Source of the DNA: Saccoglossus kowalevskii
Lineage: Eukaryota; Hemichordata; Enteropneusta; Harrimaniidae
Length of the DNA: 22,473 nucleotides
Assembly: GCF_000003605.2 (NCBI RefSeq)
Contig: NW_003148792.1
Coordinates: 88,328 to 110,800 of the forward strand
Reading direction: 5' to 3'
Shown: positions 2,480 to 22,473 of the stretch, piece by piece
How positions within the stretch are numbered: the stretch's first letter is position 1
Layout of the letters: every line of letters begins with the position of its first letter
Position numbers and translations under genes: made by a program
The notes under the pieces: generated by a model
What the model saw: the letters and a program-made list of their open reading frames with translations, nothing else
Database searches by the model: none
What the model was told of the DNA's origin: nothing

Positions 2480-4513
2480 TACACAGACATGTTCATTCTA
2501 GTTTCAAACAATAACATAATATTCACCAAACCACAAAACACGGGAACGGCATTAAATTATAACTAATATTAGAGTTAGTACCGTATCAATGTTAGGTTTA
2601 ATCATCACAATATTTAACTACTTGATATTTGCATTCTTTTCACGTTATCAGTGTACGTGGTTTGTGGTAAATTTATAAACTCAAAACAAAAGTTAAAAAC
2701 GTATGCAGTGTGTCTGGACTCATTTCTAAAATAGACACAGCAATTGTACTTAAAGGCAGTGTCCAGCATTATGATACCGTGAACAAACAATCAAGTCATT
2801 CACTACTGAACCTTCGATCAGTGCACAGCCCATAAAAACGCTGACTTTCCACCAAAGAACACAACATTTTATAAATGTACGGCCAAGGTGATATGTCCAT
2901 AGATATGTACCTGGCGAAAAAGTCACACAAAACAGCGAATTACTACAAAAACAGAGCAAAATGTGACATTCTTTCCACTGTGTGTGCTCAAACATAAAAA
3001 AATTCTCATTTTAATAATGGCATAAAAATACAGTCTTCAAAAATACAGCCAAACTATAACGTTTTGCAGTGAAATTGTGAATGAAGGCATGTATTTAGCA
3101 TTATGTGTGCTATAAATTGCAGAAGCTTATGTTGTATGGTCGATGGAAGGCAATTTTAAAGTGGGTTAGACACTCGTCATGTTGGTGTTTGTGTGCAGTT
3201 ATTAACTGGAGAATACCATGGTGCTCTGATGTATGCTCACCGGCGGTATTTGTTTGAGTTCGAATTGGAATTGGAACACATACAACAATTAAGTAGCTGG
3301 ATTGTAGTGACGAGACCAACTTATACAATACTGTTACTCTCATTGTGATTAATTCGGTTTTTTTGTTTGGGATAAATATTATGGTGAAATTGTTTGACGA
3401 AATCATGTTTTAAATATCTAAACAAACCAGTCTATTTTCTAAATTTAGGATACATACCTTTAACGTGTGAAATATACCTGCTAGTCGTACACAGAGACTG
3501 AGAACTTTGTGTTTTCCATGGCAATCTGATAAACAATCATGATATTTCAAGCATGAAAGATAGCAGTCTTACTACCCGATAGATTAAATAAATTCAACGT
3601 GTTCTTTCGATCTGAATAATCTTGGCGTGACGAGATTGGTGACAGCACGAATAATGTTGTCATGACTTCATACAAACTCACACATAGTAAACTAACAACC
3701 ACAATAATTTCGTGACAATGTTTTGCCGTCCATGAAAATAGAAAATAATTCAATCTCTAAGTCTTGTCAGGATATCCTGAGACGTATACCGGATGACCTA
3801 TGTGTTTTAAAATGTAATGTTTAAATGTTTCCTGGCATGGTGGTTATTTTATATAAGGCGACATTCTTCCTTATTTCATTTTATGATGAGTTATGACATT
3901 TCAAGATCTATCCGTTATAAATACAGTAGGAAATTATCAGTTCATTTAAAATGCATTGCAACGCCAGTTTTTATATAAATACGCACAGTGACCATTATTG
4001 ACGTTGTCGTGTTGTATTACATTTTTTAGATATATTACCAAGTAACAGTTCAATCATAATTAAAATAATTACAAATTTCACAAATGGTTCGCGTTTTATT
4101 AAATGTGAAAGGGTACAATGTCTTTGACTTAAGATATTTCTTTCAGTTTAATTGCCTTTAATTATTCACCGTTATACGTTCCAATCATTCGTACGGAGAT
4201 TTATGTGAATTATAGACAATACTTAATTCTTATAGAACGACGGGTTTTATACCGTGTCCTAAGATAAATAAAGACTCAATGTCAACGAATTGCAGACTCA
4301 GTAATGTATCGTCTTTATTTTAATAATGGCCTCTGAGGTCAAGCGACACAATAGCCTGTGTGTTCAGCGGGGCGTAGGAATGAAGAAACTAGTCTATTGA
4401 ATGTACATACTTTGCATGTCCCCCTAGCCAGATATATTACAGCCGTGATTGTGTTGTTTGATTTCTATTTATCGTGGCTAAGAATAAGTCAACTATACAC
4501 GACGCGTGGATAC

Positions 4514-4546
4514 ATGTACCGATCTCACGATGTACTCGTCTTATAA
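4514..4546 (+). other. Upstream ORF overlapping the start of the 4530 exon
   Basis: An ATG at 4514 opens a 10-codon frame, MYRSHDVLVL, that stops at 4544-4546, past the presumed main start at 4530 and in a different frame. Its context is weak (T at -3) while the main ATG has A at -3, so leaky scanning would be expected. If the transcript begins upstream of 4514, this small ORF could damp translation of the long product. Confidence 0.3.
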
Positions 4547-5185
4547 TTCAAGAATATCTAACTATATCACCCCTCCAAGTACAGGATACCATACACGATG
4601 CCACCACGGCAGCCACCACGGTAATCGTAGTGCTGACACGGCACGCTATCGGAGTACTGGGCTAGATTACAATGGATATCGAAGTACTCGTTCGCCGACC
4701 ACCAGCTGGAACCGTTCACCGTCATCGTACGATTCCTTCTCATATTCATCAGGAAGAAGTTCACTAACAAGTCCGAGTTACACACCGTCATATAGTTCCC
4801 GGACGCATGCCGAATACTCCCCGAAATACAGTACTCCGAGCCGTAGCAGAAGTAGTTCCTCGTGTACGGATGCTGAAATACCAACCACCCCGTTCAGTCC
4901 AATATCGACCAGTACTCGTTTTTCCAGCTTCGCCCAACGTCCGCCAAGTCCACGTGTATCCACGCCAAAAACTCTCAATTTCAGTCGGGACGATCTTGAT
5001 ATATCACCACTGAGTCCCACAATCACCAAACACGACGACGAAAGCAACAGTCCTGATGGTTCGAATTCTACTGAAAAACAGTTCGAAAAACCAGATAGAT
5101 CAAAGTGGTCAGAATTTTTGGAACCTAATGATGACAACACAGGAGTGGTCAAGCACGTTGCCGAGGGAGGACGATGGGTTGGAGA
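4530..5185 (+). CDS. First coding exon: Ser/Pro/Tyr-rich, probably disordered N-terminus
   Basis: The start ATG at 4530 has A at -3, and the frame is closed upstream by TAA at 4485-4487. The exon encodes 218 full codons plus two bases and meets a near-consensus donor (GA|GTAAGT, GT at 5186). Without splicing it would end at TAA 5187-5189. The protein begins MYSSYNSRISNY. Residues 24-31 are His/Gly-rich (HHGSHHGN). About residues 50-170 are dominated by Ser, Thr, Tyr and Arg, with 14 Ser-Pro or Thr-Pro sites, a pattern of proline-directed phosphorylation. The acidic, more ordered tail contains DRSKWSEFLEPND and VVKHVAEGGRWVG. No folded domain, signal peptide or membrane segment is visible. GC content is clearly above the flanks, supporting real coding. 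I do not recognise the family. A long disordered N-terminus ahead of a downstream catalytic or binding domain would fit, but that domain is not in the window. Confidence 0.7.
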
Positions 5186-6553
5186 GTAAGTACGAAACTA
5201 TGTTACATTCACTAGCAGGTTCCATGACACCCCTACGATCCGTTATAAAAACAACTACAATACACGCATTATTTGAATTACTCTAGCTCTTAAACATAAA
5301 ATAGGATTTCAGGAATTTCAGAATTTTGTTAGTACTTCTGTGTGTCTTTTAAGAAACCAGCTGTCTCGTTGGAAGCATTTGATGTGACAGATACGGTATA
5401 TGAAAGTAGTTGAAAGACTAGCTCATGGCCATGGTTGTTGGGCATCACTGTACCATAAACAGACTACTCCCATATGTCCCATTTTCACGTTTTGTAAACT
5501 ATAGCTTGACTGGGGTCACTGAAACAGGATATTTTATTAATAAACACAGCAGCACTGCTAGGACTTGCACCGTTCCCGCCACTGTGAGAATGGGTTAACC
5601 AGAGATATTTCAATAATTTTAAGTGCCCGATTCTTCTCTGCTAAAGGTCACCCTATGTAAATGCCATGTATTATAAAACACATCGTGGGTACCACGTAAT
5701 CAAAGCCACAGTGTGTGAATATACAGTACACAACATACACTGTCGTGCCCTGCAGGCATAACATAGTAAACTATTAGACGACACCTCATCGAGAAAACAA
5801 GCATGCGTATCCAATTAAAGCAAACGCATCTAACAATCCTACGAGCAATAAAATGTACGTACACTTGCCGTGAACCACAATCTCACACATGGCCTCAATA
5901 TGTCAGTGCTTGGTGTCAGTGCCATGAACGATGTCGGGATGTTCAGTGTATGTTTACAATGATCCTGTTTCAAACACATAAAATTACTTGAGAAATACCA
6001 CTTGTCGTATTTCTAAGACATTATCATATCAATCGTAAGAGTTTTACTTACGTATAAATTATTGATCTATAAGTCGTAATTGAATTCAATGATATTTTAA
6101 TTACGATAACTTCTATATTACATACGTACGTCTATATTAGTTTATACGTTGCGACGGCTCTGACTAGTGCCTCGTACAGCCGTCAAGTGTACATGATGGT
6201 CATGTTTTTATGGCAGATTCGCACTGTTTGGCAAACTATCTTGTACAAACAAATACTGCACCTGTGTTGGTTATACAAACTGATTGGCGATGCTGCCAGT
6301 GATAGCTATAACAGTTAACGCTGGCCCATTGCCTGACATGAACAGCAATTCCCGTTCCGCTCAAAATAATATAGCATACTTTTACAGTGTTGGTGCTGAT
6401 TTCTATACCATTGCAAGTTAGTTGTCGCTGTATTTGCATGACGTCTCAGTATGGCGCCCTCTATAGTGTGTCGTAAAGAATTTTCCAACCTGAAAACGTA
6501 TTCTATATTTGATAACAGCTGCTGCATACTGGCGACATAACAAAAGGGGTTTA
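5186..6553 (+). other. Presumed intron, little visible structure
   Basis: This begins at the GTAAGTACG donor. It is AT-rich, with no open frame that looks coding on the plus strand. It contains a perfect 12-bp palindrome ATTGAATTCAAT at 6079-6090, nested inside an 8-bp inverted repeat TCGTAATT (6074-6081) / AATTACGA (6099-6106). A 70-codon minus-strand frame (ATG at 6527, ending near 6315) is present but resembles nothing known. Confidence 0.45.
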
Positions 6554-6659: not shown

Positions 6660-8650
6660 TTTACTCTTTACTGCAACAATGTATATTTCATATGCATGGT
6701 TATCTACTACATTTTATACCTTTAAAGTTTTCGCATTACATAATATTACATCACATCACATTACATTACATCACATCACATCACATTACATTACATTACA
6801 TTACATTACATCACGTCACATCACATTACATTACATTACATTACATTACATCACGTCACATCACATTACATTACATTACGTCTTACTCTTTCAGTGCAAC
6901 AATGTATATTTCATATGCATGGTTATCTACTACATCTTATACCTTTAAAGTTTTCGCATTACATAATATTACATCACATCACATTACATTACATCACATC
7001 ACATCACATTACATTACATTACATTACATCACGTCACATCACATTACATTACATTACGTCTTACTCTTTCAGTGCAACAATGTATATTTCATATGCATGG
7101 TTATCTACTACATCTTATACCTTTAAAGTTTTCGCATTACATAATATTACATCACATCACATTACATTACATCACATCACATCACATTACATTACATTAC
7201 ATTACATTACATCACGTCACATCACATTACATTACATTACGTCTTACTCTTTCAGTGCAACAATGTATATTTCATATGCATGGTTATCTACTACATTTTA
7301 TATCTTTAAAGTTTTCGCATTACATAATATTACATCACATCACATCACATCACATCACATCACATCACATCACATCACATTACATTACATTACATCACAT
7401 CACATTACATTACATCACATTACATTACATTACATCACGTCACATTACATTACATTACATTACATTACATTACATCACGTCACATCACATTACATTACAT
7501 TACGTCTTACTCTTTCAGTGCAACAATGTATATTTCATATGCATGGTTATCTACTACATTTTATATCTTTAAAGTTTTCGCATTACATAATATTACATCA
7601 CATCACATCACATCACATCACATCACATCACATTACATTACATTACATTACATTACATTACATTACATCACATCACATTACATTACATTACATTACATTA
7701 CATCACATCACATTACATTACATTACATTACATTACATTACATCACATCACATCACATTACATTACATTACGTCTTACTCTTTCAGTGCAACAGTGTATA
7801 TATTTCATATGTATGGTCACCTACTACATTTTATATCTTTTAAGTTTTCGCATTTCATTACATCACATTATATTACATCTTACACTTTGTGGGTGATATT
7901 CGCTCACATTCGATCAGGTTCAAACTGCATGCATTGGATCGTACAATAAAGGAAGCGTAATGTACATTTAAACAATACACTGTTTATTATGGCGATGTTA
8001 CAACAAAGAAACTACAATGTAACAAGAAGGTAACTGATGAATACACGATAGAATGCCCCTTTTATAGGGTTCAGTAGGATTCACACCTATGGATTAAAAT
8101 AGGAAGGAGACACAGTGATAGGTTTTCAATATTGATACATCGGCTTAAAATCGACCTTACAACTGATTCCTATTGCGTTCGTGCTGTCTATTGATTATTA
8201 TTAAATGGCTTATGTAACTCGACTCTGTGTTAATTTATAATAGAGATACATGTATTGAAGTGTGAAATCTTGACATGTAATAGCTTCTACTGGCTATATC
8301 TCAGCTAATACTGCTTGTAATTGAACAAAATAAAGACGAATAGATAAAGCAAAACATGATCTAATAATACAACTAAATTTCGAGCAAGAATGAATAAATC
8401 TGAATAAACAACAACAAATAGAATCAATGAGGAAACACAGAAGTGGGTAAGCATCCACGACACACTTGTAGTGCAACTGTGTATATATTTCGTATGCATG
8501 GTTACCTACTGCATTTTTTATCTTTAAGCTTTTCACATTAAATTATATTACGTTATTACGTAAAATTACATTACATTACATTACATTACATTACATTACA
8601 TTACATCTTACTCTTTAGTTTAACACTGTATATATTTCATATGTATGGAA
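6660..8650 (+). repeat. Higher-order satellite: ~75-bp core alternating with (ATTAC/ATCAC)n
   Basis: A conserved core of about 75 bp (TCTTACTCTTTCAG, TGCAACAATGTATATTTC, ATGCATGGTTATCTACTACA, CTTTAAAGTTTTCGCATTAC) recurs, each time followed by a run of ATTAC and ATCAC pentamers. The ATG of each core lies at 6679, 6902, 7080, 7263 and 7526, with GTG at 7794, giving spacings of 223, 178, 183, 263 and 268 bp. All of these equal 3 modulo 5, so array length has changed only by whole pentamers. Two more diverged cores lie at about 8465 and 8610. Long frames here (up to 351 codons, repeating HITLHY) are by-products: a stop-free pentamer gives the same peptide in all three frames. The block is interrupted at 7888-8462 by an LTR-like insertion. 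Confidence 0.92.
7888..8462 (-). mobile_element. Solo-LTR-like insertion inside the satellite, with CACTT duplication
   Basis: This 575-bp segment interrupts one satellite core exactly. CACTT stands on both sides (7883-7887 and 8463-8467), and removing the segment plus one copy rejoins CTTACACTT to GTAGTGCAAC, matching the intact core. On the minus strand it begins TGTCGTGGATG and ends ATCACCCACA, giving the TG...CA ends of an LTR. Also on the minus strand are TATAAAAG (plus 8059-8066) and, about 70 bp further, AATAAA (plus 7983-7988), in the expected U3-R order. No primer-binding site, gag-pol or second LTR adjoins, so it is a solo LTR or similar remnant. The superfamily is not determined. 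Confidence 0.75.
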
Positions 8651-15143: not shown

Positions 15144-15840
15144 CTAGTTATATTTCCGATACCTATCTTGTTTAAAATATGAGTTAATTACTGAAATCAT
15201 GGCATCTTTTGTCATGTTAATAACACAGCGACGATGTAAAGTACAAAACAGTGTACCCCCGTTAAATAATAATGATACTTTAATTCCTAGGAGGTTCTCC
15301 AAATACATGTTTGTAACACTGTATCGTATGTGAATGGGGGCGTAATTGTATCTCACTTAGTGGAGGTTATAAATTGTTGTGACAGAGGAATGTCATCCAT
15401 TCAACTCGATATTATGCATTATTGGCATAGATCTGTATATGCAAAAATGGCCGCGGTGTATAATCTTTTAAGATTCTGTGCTTTGTTTTATTATATCTGT
15501 AGCATAATAATGAACAGGATATCCTAGATTAACGCGTCGCTAATTTACTTTTACTATCAACTGTTTCAAAAAATACCTCTCGTAATAGATTACGACGATA
15601 ATTTATAGGTATTACACCATGATTAGAGATCTAATTTACTTTGTAATCCAACTATATCTTCAAGGTTGGCAAATGTTGAAATGAGTGAGAAGAGGTATAA
15701 TGAGATTTCAAACATAAAAGTAGACACCAATATGACAACAATTGATTGGAATAGTTGCGCAAGTGAAGCTGAGTCGGTAATATTTCAAAACCAGACTAAT
15801 TTGAGGTCAAATTATTCTCAATAATGTAGGGCATGATTAT
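15144..15840. other. Non-coding stretch
   Basis: AT-rich. Short frames at 15144-15356 (minus) and 15330-15527 (plus) have no recognisable content. Nothing further seen before element A begins. Confidence 0.45.
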
Positions 15841-16537
15841 TAGCTCCGCTGTCGACTTTGTCGAGCGGAGCTTATCATATGAGTGATTGTCCGTCGTCGT
15901 CCGTCGTCGTCGTCGTCCGTCGTCCGTCGTCCGTGTCAATGTTTTACTTTTTCGACTTCTCCTTGAAAACTACAAGCCTGAATGCTTTGATACTTGGTGT
16001 ATATGTACCTTGGGTAGACCTCTCTTAGGTTTGTTCATTTCATGTTGATATCTTCAATTCTCTAATTTTGGTGAATATTTTTGTCATTTTTGGTAAAAAG
16101 TGATATTTTCGACTTCTTGTTAAAAACCGCAAGTGCAATTGCTTTGATATTACATATATAGGTACTACATGTGGACCTCTCTCAGATTTGTTCATTTTGT
16201 AATGATATCTTTAATTCTCTAATTTTGGTGAATATTTTTATCATTTTTGGTAAAAAGTGATATTTTCGACTTCTTGTTAAAAACCGCAAGTCCAATTGCT
16301 TTGATACTACATATATAGGTACTACATGTGGACCTCTCTCAGATTTGTTCATTTTGTGATGATATCTTCAATTCTCTAATTTTGGTGAATATTTTTGTAA
16401 TTTTTGGTAGAAAGTGATATTTTCGACTTCTTGTTAAAAACTGTAAGTCCGATTGCTTTGATACTATACATATTGTTCATTTTCTGATGATGTCTTCAGT
16501 TCTTTAATTGAAATGTGCATTTCTAACAGCGGAGCTA
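15841..16537 (+). mobile_element. Element A: 12-bp TIR element with 157-bp internal repeats
   Basis: The ends are perfect 12-bp inverted repeats: TAGCTCCGCTGT (15841-15852) and ACAGCGGAGCTA (16526-16537). The left end also folds on itself: AGCTCCGCT (15842-15850) pairs with AGCGGAGCT (15864-15872), with CGAC/GTCG pairing inside. Next is a CGT/CCGT microsatellite (15891-15935), then tandem units starting TTCGACTTCT at 15951, 16108, 16265 and 16422, exactly 157 bp apart. The fourth is truncated. Just outside the right end is another hairpin, CAGCC-GATA-GGCTG (16541-16554). No open frame runs through it. A non-autonomous DNA transposon is the simplest reading, but no clear target duplication flanks it. 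Confidence 0.75.
15891..15935 (+). repeat. CGT/CCGT microsatellite
   Basis: A run of CGTCGTC and CGTCCGT words directly downstream of the left-end hairpin of element A. It is CpG-rich in an AT-rich setting. The word GTCCGTC also appears at the equivalent place in element B, and GTCCGTCTG in element C. Confidence 0.85.
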
Positions 16538-16800
16538 TCTCAGCCGATAGGCTGCTTGTTTATAAATAAATGATTATTGAATTTTATTTGAGTTGCACTG
16601 CAGTAATTTATTATGCAATTGTAGTGAACTGAACCAGACATTATCATCAACTCAACTACTTTATCAAAAAGTTCATCTACATAACCTGTGATGTTATAAA
16701 TATGCTTTTGTGAAATTAAATATATTATAGTACATGTAAATTTACGATTTCAGTGTTTTTCTTCAAATTAAGGATGTAGTAGACTTTCATGGTGCTTTTT

Positions 16801-18263
16801 AGTTCCTGTTCGGACGCAGTCCGAAAACGGGGACTTGTGTTTTGACCTTTGTGTGTCTGTGCGAGCGTCCGTCCGGTATATTAGAAATGCCTGGACTAAT
16901 CACAATCAAACTTCACACATACATCATATATCATATTATACATATGCACGTCAATTTGTTTCACGATCTGATTCAAGATGGCCAAATGGCGGCCATTTTT
17001 GTGCTAAAAAGATTTTGTTCAAAATTGGTATATATTATTTTGTTTAGTGAATGTGGTTCTAGTGCTATATCTCTGACTTGCTTTGACTGATAATGTTCAA
17101 ATTTTAAATATTTATTATACATCATGTCATAGATATACAGATATATTGGTTTGACGATTCTATTTAATGGCCGAATGTTTGCCATTTTTGTGCTAAAAAA
17201 TCATCAAAATCAAGCTTTTCCTGGTTGTTTACAGATGGATTTCGTTCAAACCTTGTATATACGTTGGACATTATAGGACCTCGATGCACATCATTTTGTT
17301 TTTCCATCTGATTCAAGATGGCCGAATGGCGGCCATTTTTGTGCTAAAAAAATCATAAAAATCAAGCATTTCTCGGCTGTTTACAGATGGATTTTGTTCA
17401 AACTTGGTATATACATTAAACATTATGGGACCTTGATGCAAATAATTTTGTTTTTCAAATAAGATACAAAATGACCGACTGGTGGCCATTTTGTTTTAAT
17501 GAATGTGGTTCTCGTGCCATATCTTTGACTTGCTTTCACTGATTATGTTCAAATTTTAAATACTCATTACAGATCATGTCATAGATAAACAGATATATTA
17601 GTTTGACGATCCTATTAAAAATGGCCGAATGGTTACCATTTTTGTGCTAAAAATCATCAAATATCAAGCATTTCTGGATGGATTTTGTTCAAACTCGGTA
17701 CATACATTAGACATTATGGGTTCCTGCACATCATTTATTTTTCAGATCGGATTCAAAATGGCTGTCTGGCGACCATTTTGTTTTAATGAATGGGCTTCTA
17801 GACCCATATCTCCAACTTGTTTTGACTGATTATGTTCAAATTTTAAATATTCATTATACATCATGTCATAGATATACGGATATATTGGTGGCTTTTTTTG
17901 TGCTAATCTGGATGGATTTTATTCAAACTTATAACATACATTAGACATCATAGGTTCCTGATGCATGTCATTTTATTTTTCAGATTGCATTCAAAATGGC
18001 TGACTGGTGGCCATTTTGTTTTAATGATTGGGCTTCTAGAGCCACATCTCTTAAATGGCTGATTTTGAATGCTGTTCCAGAGCAATATCTCTCAATATGG
18101 TACAAGTACGTGTTTGACGATCAGATACAAATGTCAATCATTTTAATGTTAAAAAATCATATTTCTGACATGGTTATATTCCTTCTGTATTACTATAAAC
18201 AAAACTATATATGGCTTGTTTTTCATTTTTTTCTTATTAAATGGTGACTCATACCATAGGACT
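16801..18263 (+). mobile_element. Element B: hairpin-led repeat element with ATGGCCGAATGGCGGCCAT units
   Basis: It starts with a hairpin: TTCGGAC (16809-16815), GCA, GTCCGAA (16819-16825), extended by AGTTCCTG opposite CGGGGACT with two G-U-type pairs. A TG-rich stretch with GTCCGTCCGG follows. It then carries seven copies of a near-palindromic word, best copy ATGGCCGAATGGCGGCCAT at 17318, with others at 16978, 17167, 17471, 17621, 17758 and 17996. Most spacings are 137-153 bp. Copies are usually followed by TTTTGTGCTAAAAA or TTTTGTTTTAATGA. The right end is uncertain; AGGACT at 18258 is a poor match to the left end. No coding frame of substance. Confidence 0.6.
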
Positions 18264-18544
18264 TAGGCAGCCATACGACCTTTTTTTTATTAAATCACAT
18301 TTTTATTTCAAGAAAAAACAGTATCAGAATTTACAAGTAACGGAAATCCCAGGAATGTGCACTTCGGCTAAGCCCCTCTGAGACGAAACAATAACATTTG
18401 TAATTAGCAGAAGTAAACATTACGTGTACGTGTCTGGTCAAATAACCGTATGCACTAACACTTTGCTGATAGTTCATTGCATCGCTTTTCTCTACTATAT
18501 ATTACTGTTCATTTATTTTGTATTGACCAAGTTTATTTTGCAAA
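18264..18544. other. Non-coding; T-rich tract facing a minus-strand poly(A) signal
   Basis: An oligo-T run at about 18281-18288, followed by TTTTTATTTC (about 18300-18309), reads on the minus strand as AATAAA then A-rich sequence. This resembles the 3' end of a transcript or retroposed copy running right to left. No coding frame was identified upstream of it on that strand. Confidence 0.25.
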
Positions 18545-18685
18545 ATGGCACAGAAAAAAAATTTGGAAAAGATTGTTTCAATGACAAGCGCAACCTGCAA
18601 GTTTCTGAATAGCAGAAAGAGTATTTTTTACTATGAAACAAAGTCCCTCTACGAAAGTCGGACGAAGTCAAGAAAACCCAAGTGA
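18545..18685 (+). pseudogene. Out-of-frame leader of the Mutator-like fragment
   Basis: ATG at 18545 opens a 46-codon frame beginning MAQKKNLEKIVSMTSATCKF, basic and Lys-rich, that stops at 18683-18685. It overlaps the 18633 frame by about 50 bases in a different register. A basic start just ahead of the Mutator-like frame suggests both were once one reading frame, now split by a frameshift. This is inference; the leader alone has no identifiable domain. Confidence 0.25.
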
Positions 18686-19061
18686 CATTTGCTCCACCAC
18701 ACCGGAGACTGAAGACACTACCATAACCACCTCGAATGCTGACGATGACACCACTATACTATCACTGGAGGCTGACGACACAACATCAACACTCAGGATG
18801 AGCATGTCCAAACAAAAAATAGTGCCAGCGAAGTCTGCAGTATCTGGCAATGCTTGTGGTGAAGCGAATAACACGAGGCTCGTCAACCTGGATATATTGA
18901 TTTCGAATCTGGCTGACCACTGTAAATGTTCTCAGTGTAAGGGAAAAATATGTATCCATGAACAATCTCATTATGGCTGGAAATCTCACTTTAGTCTCCG
19001 GTACACATTCGGCCTTTCGAACATAACACATTCAGTGTTGCGAATTTTTATAATTGCTTAA
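18633..19061 (+). CDS. Mutator-like transposase-domain protein, N-terminal remnant
   Basis: The 142-codon frame starts at an ATG with A at -3. Residues 1-80 are Ser/Thr/Asp-rich (two related DDTTI/ADDTTS stretches). Residues 82-123 carry the part I recognise: LVNLDILISNLADHC, then CKCSQCKGKICIHEQ, then GWKSHFSLR. This matches my memory of the opening of the Mutator-like transposase domain found in many invertebrate repeat-derived proteins: a hydrophobic VxLDxL helix, a CxCxxC zinc-ligand cluster (97-102), a hydrophobic strand with Glu, then GLxSxFxxxC. Here the next expected cysteine pair is missing and the frame ends 19 residues after SLR. No catalytic domain follows, so it cannot be an active transposase. 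It lies between repeat elements B and C. An alternative is one exon of a host gene derived from such an element. Confidence 0.5.
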   Translation: MKQSPSTKVGRSQENPSDICSTTPETEDTTITTSNADDDTTILSLEADDTTSTLRMSMSKQKIVPAKSAVSGNACGEANNTRLVNLDILISNLADHCKCSQCKGKICIHEQSHYGWKSHFSLRYTFGLSNITHSVLRIFIIA

Positions 19062-20957
19062 TACATTGTTTATGTGTTGTTAATTAAAATGTATTTGTTG
19101 TTGAAAATTGTGTGTGTGTCGAATTCCAAGGGTTTTAATACATGCCTCCCAAAAGCTACGTACATTGCCATTCTAAAACACCCTCACACGGCTATGACAA
19201 TTTAAGTGTAGCGACGTGACGTCACTCAAAAACATTCGTATTCGATTCTGTCGGGGTCATTAATTCATTTTCAGTAAAATATCTAGCTTAGACGTCATTT
19301 CGAACATTTCAATCTTCCTGATGCCTAAATTTTATTCTAATTTAGGTTTTCCCCGTAGTCATTGACACTATTCAAGGGTATGGTTCATTGTAGCTGGCGT
19401 GATGGGGTAAACTTATCACAGTAAAAAAACGTGATGTAATTAACGTTTACATTAGTGTTATCATAATAACGAAAGTCTACGACATCATTACGTTTATCTG
19501 GTCACTTGATGGAAAATCCTCATCTTGGGTGCAATGGGATTATTTAGACTATGGAACGTCTTTAGATAGAATGTTTGATTAGACGGAGACAGTAACTTTA
19601 TACATGTATCACTGCAGTTACTTCTTCAGTTTACAATTTCTGCGAGTTTTTTGCAAGAACTTGAAGCCAATACGGAAACTATAATGTTAAGGTTTGCGAT
19701 AGTTGTGAGAGGCAAGTCCAGGGATGTCAGCTGAGGCACATTTATAATTCGTATTATGTATCTTTATTATAGTTGAAATCCAGACTATCCTAAAAATTAA
19801 GCCTCCAACAAAATGTAGTTTGGTGTAATGGCATTGAAAAAAATATAATCATATGATTTCGAAATATTATATTATTCACAATGACAAATACAAATCATAT
19901 TTTATTTTCAACTACCTCTTTTGTCTGTCACACTCTCACAGTTGTAATCTGTAGGCACATAAAGAAAATCTGTATATGGTCCAATAACGTTTTTATTTGG
20001 CAAGTATCACTACATTGTCATCAGACTGCACACCAGTAAACATGATTGATTATAGTGTGCAGTTCCATAGTGCAACCTTTTCACAGTTTTAGTTGTGATT
20101 GATGTTGTTTTTAGAAAAACATTTGTAATAGCAGATTGATGCATGATAGTTGTGATGATTGCCATATGATTGAGATAAGTAAATAGGCACAAACATATTG
20201 CCACAGTTGCACTGGAGAAGAGGATTGATCAAGATTTCTAGCTGGAACATTCTTGATAAAGAGTTGACTTTCCCATTTTTTTTTGTAGCCTTAATTTTTA
20301 CATTCCTGCAAAACTACGATGCAAGACCCGATCCGTTGCTTTATTTTTCCCTCAGACAGCAAGCGGCATAGGTAACATACAAAAAACAACCTCAGTAAAT
20401 TGTTTTCAAAAGTGAGGTACTTTCTTTCCTTGTGAGGGCCAACTCTGGAATTAAAACTAAAAATCGAAAACACATTCGTGACTTTACAATGTTGCTTAAT
20501 TCATGTTATGTTATGAGATGTAGACGTACTTTATTCCCATAATATCTATAGATCTGTCTTCTGTCATACTGTATCAGTGATGATGATCATCTTAGATAGA
20601 TACCGGTAGTATAGATACGCTATTTTCTAGATGTCGGCTTCTGTCTTACAGGCCGATATAAATAAAATAATAAAATAAAAGTAAATTAGTGTCATATGAT
20701 TATTTTTTGCGAATGGTCTGACATGAAAAGGGTGCAGTATAGCTTATGCAGTGGCATCATACTCGTGGATGAACAATGTGATTTTCACCAAAATTGTTGA
20801 GTATTCTTATTTTTAAACAAAAATTGTATTAACTGTTCATAGAAAATACAAGCCAAATTTGTTGCAGATTTTTACTGCATATTACACTGTATTTGGAAGG
20901 TGTTGTCTACTTACCTCCCTTTGGTTTGAAGAATGCTGTTCAGAGTCTCTGTAATTG
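19062..20957. other. Non-coding stretch
   Basis: About 1.9 kb, AT-rich, with no supported gene. A perfect cyclic-AMP response element is at 19217-19224. Near 20661-20683 is an A/T-only run of AATAAAAT words. The frames at 20010-20204 and 20291-20473 (minus) look like noise. Confidence 0.5.
19217..19224. promoter_or_regulatory. Perfect CRE (TGACGTCA)
   Basis: The palindrome TGACGTCA sits in GACGTGACGTCACTC, the full CREB/ATF site. It lies about 150 bp downstream of the Mutator-like fragment. No gene start is visible nearby, so this is motif evidence only. Confidence 0.4.
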
Positions 20958-22352
20958 ACTCCCGTGTGCAAAGGGAGTCTTTGCAGTTAGTGTGTGTGTG
21001 TGGGTGTGTGTGTGTGTGTGTGGGGGGGGGGGGTATGTGTGTGTGTGTATGTGTGTCCGTCTGTTCCACTGATATCTCGAAAACCATACATTGATTTTTG
21101 ATGAAACTTTGTGCTCTGGGCCAATGCGCAGTTTTGATTAGGTTTTCTTAAAAATCCATGCATATTAATTACCTAATTTGCATGATAATTAGGTGATTTT
21201 TAGCTGTTATTACTGTTCCACTGATATCTAAAGAACCACTTATTGGATTTTGATGAAACTTGGCACATAGATGCTCGAAACTGATGTGCAGATTCGATTA
21301 GTTTTGGGTAAAAATCTGTCCAATATTAATTACCTAATTTGCATAATGATTAATAAATTTTCGGCTTTTCCACTGATATCTCAAGAACCATACATTGATT
21401 TTTGATGAAACTTGGTACATAGATGTCACAGGACACTGCACAGATCTGATAGTTTTTAAGGTAATATCAGTAGATATTAATTACCTAATTTGCATAATTA
21501 AATAATTTTCAGCTTTTGATATTTCAAGTAGTAATCATCACATTTCAATGAAACTTGGTACATAGATGTCATAGGACACTGCACAGACCTGATAGTTTTT
21601 AGGGTAATATCAGTACATATTAATTACCTAATTTGCATAATTAATTCATTTTCAGCTTTTGCTATTTCAAGTAGTAATCATCACATTTCAAAGTAACTTG
21701 GTACTTAGTTACTTAAGGACTGTGCAGATTCCTGATTAGTGTTGGGGTAAATATTTGTGCATTTTAATTACCTAATTTGCAATATTAATTAATTTTCAGC
21801 TTTGATATTTCAAGTACTAATCATATTTCAATGAGACTTGATAATTAGATCTTCTGATGAGTTATAGGGTAAATAATTGTGAATATTAATTACCTAATTA
21901 GCATAATTAGTTATTATTTTCCATGAAAGTTCCACTGATATATAAGGAACCACGAATTGGATTTTAATGAAACTTTTAAAGAGTACTCATCATCACATTT
22001 CAATGAATCTAGAACTATACAGAGACCCAATTAGTTTTTGTAACTATTTATGCTTATTAATCACCTAATTAACATAATTAATTAACACTGATATCTCAAT
22101 TACTGATCATCACATTTGAATAAAATTTGGTACATAAATGCTCTAGGACAATAGACAGGCCTGATTAATTTTGGGTTAAAATTTGTTCATATTAATTCTC
22201 TAATTAGCATAACAATTCATAATTTTTTTTTTCTGTTCATATTAGTTACCTGATTTACATAATTAGTTTTCAGTTTTTCCATCAATATCTCAGGTACAAG
22301 TAATTTTGAATTAATATTTAATGTGTCTTCAATACTCTCAGCACACGGGAGT
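20958..22352 (+). mobile_element. Element C: 12-bp TIR element with ~140-153-bp internal repeats
   Basis: Perfect 12-bp inverted ends: ACTCCCGTGTGC (20958-20969) and GCACACGGGAGT (22341-22352). The left end also folds: GACTCCC (20957-20963) pairs with GGGAGTC (20973-20979). A (TG)n tract with a run of about 13 G follows, then GTCCGTCTG. About eight tandem units come next. Their ATGAAACTTGG-type core lies at 21101, 21253, 21405, 21549, 21691, 21831, 21967 and 22120 (spacings 152, 152, 144, 142, 140, 136, 153), and each ends in a version of ATTAATTACCTAATTTGCAT. Units decay from left to right. No coding frame. No clear target duplication is seen outside the ends. Confidence 0.75.
20989..21058 (+). 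repeat. (TG)n microsatellite with poly-G run
   Basis: Alternating TG dinucleotides flank an uninterrupted G run at about 21022-21033. Alternating purine-pyrimidine tracts favour Z-DNA, and the G run may pair with itself. It occupies the same place, after the end hairpin, as the CGT tract in element A and the TG-rich stretch in element B. Confidence 0.9.
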
Positions 22353-22473
22353 TCTTTCTAAGCTTTTTTTGATTTTGATTTCTGTTGGAAAAAAGAACAA
22401 ACTGACACCGTTACTTTTTGTTTGGCTGGAATCAGTCACTATGCATCGTTTAACCATGGCAAACACAAGTTTT

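Follow-up and report, generated by a model that had tools for sequence, protein, structure and literature searches.

Three tandem-repeat elements of Saccoglossus kowalevskii as probable families of non-autonomous Helentrons

Architecture and genomic copies of the three elements

The 22,473 nucleotides analysed here (the window) are the forward strand of Saccoglossus kowalevskii NW_003148792.1:88,328-110,800, and their right edge is the end of the contig. Three elements, termed A, B and C, lie in this window, all of them (n = 3) on the plus strand, to which the coordinates below refer. Our results make it very probable that these are three separate families of non-autonomous Helentrons (HINEs), i.e., gene-less rolling-circle transposons. 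An initial annotation of this DNA had described three co-oriented elements of one architecture and one kind, and the hairpins, simple-sequence tracts, tandem arrays and genomic copies bear this out. The decisive feature had gone unnamed: the outer arm of the 5' hairpin returns inverted at the far end of the element, exactly over 12 bp in A (15841-15852 with 16526-16537) and in C (20958-20969 with 22341-22352). None of the three elements has a listed stop-to-stop frame of at least 100 amino acids (the list covers frames that close within the window), and a search of the whole window against Rfam at gathering thresholds gave 0 matches.

Element A is about 721 bp in length (15840-16560, borders taken from genomic copies) and appears to be a complete non-autonomous element of the Helentron type. 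Its 5' subterminal inverted repeat (subTIR), TAGCTCCGCTGT, at 15841-15852 forms an exact inverted pair of 12 bp with the 3' subTIR, ACAGCGGAGCTA, at 16526-16537. An internal inverted repeat (IR) at 15864-15874 pairs with the 5' subTIR to form a hairpin of -19.8 kcal/mol, the energies of all 5' ends being computed with RNA parameters. Tandem Repeats Finder (TRF) detects a GTCCGTC/GTC microsatellite at 15889-15937, and the central tandem repeats extend from 15953 to 16515. The spacing of these units is exactly 157 bp, as stated in the initial annotation; anchors at 15953, 16110, 16267 and 16424 agree with TRF on this value. Beyond the 3' subTIR is a palindrome, CAGCC-GATA-GGCTG (16541-16554), and the tail that contains it folds at -8.1 kcal/mol.

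Copies were sought in 572,110,611 bases of the genome on 4,830 contigs. For A, 3350 first-look candidates led to 40 that were scored and to 49 matching stretches; the corresponding figures were 3,460, 40 and 127 for B and 2675, 40 and 81 for C. Among the 39 best non-window matches of A, 36 begin at query 34-41 and 28 stop at query 760-766, the rest having their borders elsewhere. Both ends of A were seen in all 20 of the copies fetched, the window's own included; these copies have TTTTTAGCTCCGCTGT-type starts, ...CAGCGGAGCTATCTCAGCCGATAGGCTGCTTGTT-type ends and mostly different flanks, and their ends lie 697-730 bp apart, a few bases past the ends included. The exact 34-nt 3' end of A occurs 298 times in the genome (145 + 153), against 0 occurrences of a reversed-pattern control. 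Identity to the window copy is 91-97% for A (39 best matches), 85-93% for B (main matches, 5' part) and 79-90% for C (main matches); since the identities of A are the highest, A looks to be the youngest of the three families.

Element B (16799-18221) is read as a HINE copy with a damaged 3' end. Its 5' subTIR and IR form a hairpin at 16801-16836 (-19.6 kcal/mol; the common form among copies is AGTCCCCGTTCGGACGCAGTCCGAAAACGGGGACTT), which is followed by a short tract of the GTCY type, GTCTGTGCGAGCGTCCGTCCGG, at 16855-16876. The central tandem repeats at 16888-18060 (TRF, anchors) have spacings of 137-152 bp by their anchors, plus two short ones of 78 and 87 bp. Twenty B loci were fetched, all of them plus-strand rows drawn from a list of the 40 main places. 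The 5' border was present in 20 of 20 and the 3' end, with up to 6 edits allowed, in 16 of 20, the two ends lying 790-2,653 bp apart; in L010, L016, L017 and L026 the 3' end was not found in the stretch read. A partner of the 5' arm was not found within the window, but other copies carry one: their subTIR pair, AGTCCCCGTT/AACGGGGACT, is exact over 10 bp, and their 3' end reads ...AACGGGGACTGTGCCATGCATGGCTTGTTT, with a palindrome, GCCATGCATGGC, that folds at -4.5 kcal/mol in these copies, not in that of the window. The window's 3' end (18195-18221) reads ...ACTATATAT and then GGCTTGTTT, where other copies hold further bases between the two. By this comparison the window copy is missing its 3' subTIR as well as the palindrome's left arm, with part of the right arm and GGCTTGTTT left as a remnant at 18213-18221. 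The exact 29-nt 3' end of B occurs 229 times in the genome (120 + 109; control, 0). Additional B 3' ends are repeated in L007/L012 and in L027, and L019 contains a head-to-tail join, as would be expected from a bypass of rolling-circle termination (PMC4067079).

Element C (20955-22374, about 1420 bp by copy borders) is a probable member of the HINEs. Its 5' subTIR, GACTCCCGTGTGC, lies at 20957-20969, of which 20958-20969 pair exactly over 12 bp with the 3' subTIR, GCACACGGGAGT, at 22341-22352. An internal IR at 20973-20979 lies beside the 5' subTIR (hairpin, -18.7 kcal/mol). The microsatellite detected by TRF at 20986-21062 is mostly (TG)n and ends in GTCCGTCT; the central tandem repeats at 21061-22330 have spacings of 134-153 bp (anchors; 143 bp by TRF). 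Three non-window matches, in L051, L052 and L053, cover C at full length in one piece, from query 52-56 to query 1475-1480. The remaining matches touch one end or come in pieces, and several copies are truncated or rearranged at an end. At the copy borders, the starts are of the TTTGACTCCCGTGTGCGAAGCACAAAAAGGGAGTC type and the ends of the ...GCACACGGGAGTTCTTTCTAAGCTTTCTTTGATT type.

The three elements follow a single plan. The 5' subTIR lies near the end and the 3' subTIR further inside, in keeping with the 11-15 bp subTIRs of HINEs, and an IR beside the 5' subTIR makes a hairpin in all three. The GC-rich 5' hairpins and the GTCCGTC motif noted initially are present in each element, the motif lying inside a simple tract that is short in B and mostly TG in C. 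The unit lengths first given for B and C are also about right. Unrelated borders had been named at the outset as evidence that would count against a single superfamily. This is not what the copies show: TTTTTAG at the 5' end and GCTTGTT at the 3' end are common to A and B, and A, B and C all sit in T-runs.

Insertion sites and orientation of neighbouring elements

Copies of all three families are flanked by T. In the 20 loci read for each family, T is found at both -1 and -2 beside the element core in 19 of 19 rows for A, the same number for B and 11 of 11 for C, and at +1 in 20 of 20, 14 of 15 and 15 of 16, respectively, after removal of rows with an incomplete end match (1 A, 1 B and 9 C at the 5' end; 0, 5 and 4 at the 3' end). 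When the two flanks of the L014 B copy are joined, they match uninterrupted places, six of which were aligned (L053, L009, L017, L054, L015 and L030); these are 80-88% identical over most of the construct and are interrupted in L014 at a run such as CCTTTTTTCC, the junction Ts having been trimmed. A seventh place, L011, matches across the L014 junction in the search only and is outside the six aligned. L003 is the same place as L009, and L011 the same place as L005. In two A copies, those of L031 and L039, the right flank is the host repeat that served as target of the L014 B copy, and it begins at the same point. On the evidence of these right flanks, A and B both seem to have inserted at a single T-run of a single host repeat. 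This repeat, near TATATTTTACATTCAACTCATCAAAAATCAGTGAAAATAAATTCCA, is dispersed; its T-run adjoins both A and B copies, and it is also present in L009, L015, L017, L030, L053 and L054.

Neighbouring elements tend to share a direction. Of 60 non-window loci, each picked by a match to one of the elements, 14 contain more than one family (two or all three), and these families point the same way in 12 of the 14 and are opposed in 2 (L026 and L057). The one-sided binomial probability is 0.0065, a post hoc value, as much the same set of loci had first suggested the trend; the pairs were called from BLAST bodies of at least 60 bp, some of them partial. Individual loci illustrate the range of arrangements. 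In L060 and L061, A, B and C all lie on one strand within about 4 kb; in L023 an A of about 530 bp that retains both ends sits inside a B; in L059 an A begins about 30 bp after a C ends; and in L024 two A starts follow a B.

The top strands of the window elements contain more T-runs than A-runs. Runs of at least 4 number 17 of T to 6 of A in element A, 32 to 14 in B and 28 to 5 in C; for runs of at least 5 the excess is smaller (7 to 5, 9 to 7 and 9 to 2, respectively). Insertion into or beside the T-runs of an older element, which are commoner on its top strand, would yield elements of the same orientation. As the elements lie in T-runs in one orientation and have T-rich top strands, later insertions may be expected to point the same way.

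Sequence and folding of the tandem units

The initial annotation had read ordered anchors in the A and C units as signs of one ancient superfamily, in which the length of a unit of about 150 bp and the order of its anchors had persisted from A to C. The unit lengths are indeed similar, but the sequences of A give this descent no support. In local alignments of the arrays, 60 of 200 dinucleotide shuffles reached the A-C score, 103 the A-B score and 16 the B-C score. Hidden Markov models (HMMs) of the A units found nothing in the B or C arrays, and those of B and C found nothing in A, while a search of C with the B model scored 6.4 bits, a value reached by 2 of 300 shuffles, and the search of B with the C model scored 6.5 bits (0 of 300). 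Consensus units were built from 81 A, 47 B and 137 C units of the fetched copies; when these were compared as circles under three scorings, with 1500 shuffles each, the observed score was reached by 470-1009 shuffles for A-B, 315-761 for A-C and 39-60 for B-C. Kinship of the A units with those of C or B is rejected on all three tests.

An alignment of A and C no better than shuffled sequence had been set beforehand as the result that would refute a common unit, and this is the result obtained. Because so many shuffles reach the A-C and A-B scores, the anchors of A and C do not, on these sequences, constitute evidence of descent. B and C may share a core near AAACTTGGTAYATA...TAGGAC; the signal, from the B-C values above, is borderline and is uncorrected for the number of comparisons. 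For A and C the ancient superfamily is refuted at the present sensitivity. Moreover, the HINEs of a single genome can carry mutually unrelated repeats, predominantly of 140-180 bp, as described for the Pacific oyster (PMC7492417), so units of equal length need not share an ancestor. Overall, we regard a superfamily of this kind as improbable and favour three separate HINE families whose units are alike in size class only and would have been acquired separately.

Selection on the period itself is a different possibility: the units could be satellite arrays or, as the initial annotation had suggested, nucleosome-phasing arrays or folded RNAs. The period of about 134-157 bp is compatible with this, and an imperfect palindrome, AAAATGGCCG...CGGCCATTTT, is conserved among the B units, e.g., at 17466-17493 and 17992-18019 of the window. 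This palindrome accounts for an RNAalifold energy of -4.23 in B units (40 units were used for each family) that was reached by 0 of 60 column shuffles. The other folding results do not exceed those of shuffled sequence. RNAalifold gave -7.77 for A, compared with a column-shuffle mean of -7.20 (21 of 60 as low), and 0.0 for C, and the fold z-scores of the consensus units against shuffles were 0.66 for A, -1.12 for B and -1.38 for C. A shared RNA fold of the units is rejected on these near-shuffle scores, the short palindrome in B being the exception. In addition, the arrays lie between transposon ends wherever ends survive in the copies read. A selected period is hence a most improbable explanation by comparison with arrays carried inside HINEs.

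Relationship to known HINEs and to the Helentron machinery

The plan of these elements was initially thought to fit no named family, but it corresponds to that of HINEs, including DINE-1 (PMC4067079, PMC2374699, PMC7492417). A and B have subTIRs, a 5' IR, a GTCY tract, a 3' palindrome, a T-rich site and no coding capacity, all of which are features of HINEs. The comparisons made here are with the published descriptions of these elements. DINE-1 of Drosophila (PMC2374699, PMC4067079) is described as having subTIRs of 13 bp, the 5' one accompanied by an IR, a microsatellite rich in GTCY, central repeats that vary and are unrelated between species, no significant open reading frame, insertion between TT and a 3' stem-loop (PMC2374699). 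The elements here resemble it in their subTIRs, the IR at the 5' subTIR, the GTCY-rich microsatellite, family-specific central repeats, insertion at Ts and, for A and B, the 3' stem-loop; they differ in having stems of 5-6 bp, compared with 7-11 nt in DINE-1.

The 11 Cg_HINE elements of the Pacific oyster have monomers predominantly of 140-180 bp (PMC7492417). GTCY/GTCC microsatellites occur in several of them and unrelated monomers in some; their targets are T-rich, and the account given in that paper has no target-site duplication and leaves the autonomous partner unassigned. Like Cg_HINEs, A, B and C have a 5' subTIR plus IR, a GTCY/GTCC microsatellite, central repeats in the size class of 140-180 bp that predominates there and a T-rich target. 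A and B further share the 3' subTIR plus palindrome, and both genomes hold several families with unrelated repeats and without an assigned autonomous partner. C differs from Cg_HINEs in its lack of a 3' hairpin. Pearl of bivalves (compared by its description in PMC7492417) also has satellite-like central repeats and is non-autonomous, and it has been re-categorised as a Helentron. The layout shared by A, B and C is thus the standard HINE layout, and for this reason the find has a good explanation and is not a novelty. What is new is the three families themselves, in that they were not found in literature titles or the starts of abstracts (where sequences are unsearchable; they may already sit in Repbase), and the modest, post hoc result on co-orientation.

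An assignment to MITE-like (miniature inverted-repeat transposable element) cut-and-paste transposons has some appeal. A, B and C are short and gene-less and have inverted repeats, DINE-1 is called a MITE in PMC2374699, and Pearl was likewise so called before its re-categorisation (PMC7492417). Against this, the 3' arm is set in from the end by about 20 bp, so that the inverted repeats are subterminal there; a flanking duplication is not apparent, by eye, in the copies listed; and the position in T-runs and the repeated 3' ends also disagree with such an origin. Cut-and-paste transposition is therefore very unlikely, and rolling-circle transposition as HINEs is preferred. By analogy with the known family, a Helentron protein would recognise both ends of the element, one strand would be copied by rolling-circle replication and inserted between Ts, and the 3' palindrome would act as a terminator. 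The need of one kind of enzyme for the same terminal signals would then produce the shared layout.

PMC4067079, which names the HINE group, ties HINEs to endonuclease-encoding Helentrons and gives an endonuclease joined to Rep/helicase as the mark of a Helentron. Profile searches of the genome yielded 8 matches to Helitron Rep (PF14214) at 7 places, from 11 candidates, and 11 matches to PIF1 (PF05970), from 23 candidates. At C2261, C2109 and C651, PIF1 lies 1.1-1.7 kb from Rep on the same strand, in the order Rep-helicase. C2261 was the one locus read for an endonuclease; downstream of the helicase match it contains matches to Pif1_2B (E 1.9e-8) and to the Exo_endo_phos endonuclease, PF03372 (E 5e-12). 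The Rep stretch of this locus has a match to 7lcc_A, the transposase chain of Helraiser (E 5.1e-6). To judge from these domain matches, the genome holds at C2261 a Rep, PIF1 and endonuclease set on the Helentron plan, with the Rep/Helicase/Endonuclease of autonomous Helentrons (PMC4067079) in the same order on one strand. It departs from the autonomous elements in that its ends were not found and that it was not matched to A, B or C.

Several observations weigh against the assignment of A, B and C to HINEs. The flanking Ts may be partly the elements' own sequence. Uninterrupted targets were found for one B insertion only, and these are paralogues with 80-88% identity, not alleles. The absence of an apparent target-site duplication in the listed A and B copies was judged by eye only. 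The 3' tail of C (22353-22374) has no hairpin (0.0 kcal/mol), its sole palindrome being a 6-nt AAGCTT that could be due to chance. At C2261, the exact end strings of A, B and C are absent from about 0.8 kb upstream of the Rep open reading frame and about 1.6 kb downstream of the endonuclease, and these stretches contain no recognisable subTIR pair of their own, although a single 11-mer containing a T-run, along with a few 10-mers, occurs there. In eight Rep loci, with up to about 1.5 kb read on each side, the matches to the element ends were confined to two partial ones with the C 3' end, both in L069 (15 and 11 nt, E 0.17). As the Rep loci read contain no convincing A, B or C end, this machinery is not tied to any of the three families, and their autonomous partner was not identified.

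Other features were observed near the Rep sequences. A diverged A-like array (about 71-77% identity) is found at L070:3194-3345, at the end of L070, on C3364. It lies about 0.3 kb past a 68-bp minisatellite (L070:1892-2848), which is itself within a broken Rep frame or follows it. The array may be next to this Rep by chance, or it may connect family A with a Rep element. L072 and L073 (C238 and C3452, about 11 kb each) carry a different Helitron-type Rep in an 1111-amino-acid frame that is open at both locus ends; C238 and C3452 are short contigs, 99.3% identical over 1.96 kb, and this Rep belongs to another element family or to a contaminant.

The remainder of the window contains a CATTA/CATCA short-repeat array at 6734-7879, which has a higher-order period of 178-263 bp and carries a TCTTACTCTTTCAGTGCAACAATGTATATTTCATATGCATGG segment. 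A serine-rich open frame of 233 amino acids at 4488-5189 ends in GRWVGE just before GTAAGT and looks like a coding exon with its splice donor. Between B and C, outside the HINEs, is a 150-amino-acid open frame at 18609-19061. Neither of these two frames has a Pfam match at E 0.01, and Pfam searches of three window open reading frames gave nothing above the cut-off and one match below it (PAP2, E 0.0068). A 34-nt inverted repeat at 1657-1690 and 2227-2260, 85% complementary and with its arms 536 nt apart, is possibly another small transposon.

In summary, the classification replaces a mystery with three further HINE families on a published plan, in one genome and with fixed ends, the exact 3' ends having been counted for A and B. 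We also entertain, as an unlikely proposal, that HINE families converged on or inherited the AAACTTGGTAYATA...TAGGAC motif of B and C because it aids replication or tethering, and that strand-guided insertion into T-runs builds co-oriented mixed arrays that serve as nurseries for tandem repeats. A genome with Rep, PIF1 and endonuclease sequences is a place to seek the link between HINEs and autonomous Helentrons, which the oyster study (PMC7492417) left open in the part cited. The co-orientation of neighbouring HINEs would have a simple cause, namely, insertion guided by the T-bearing strand.

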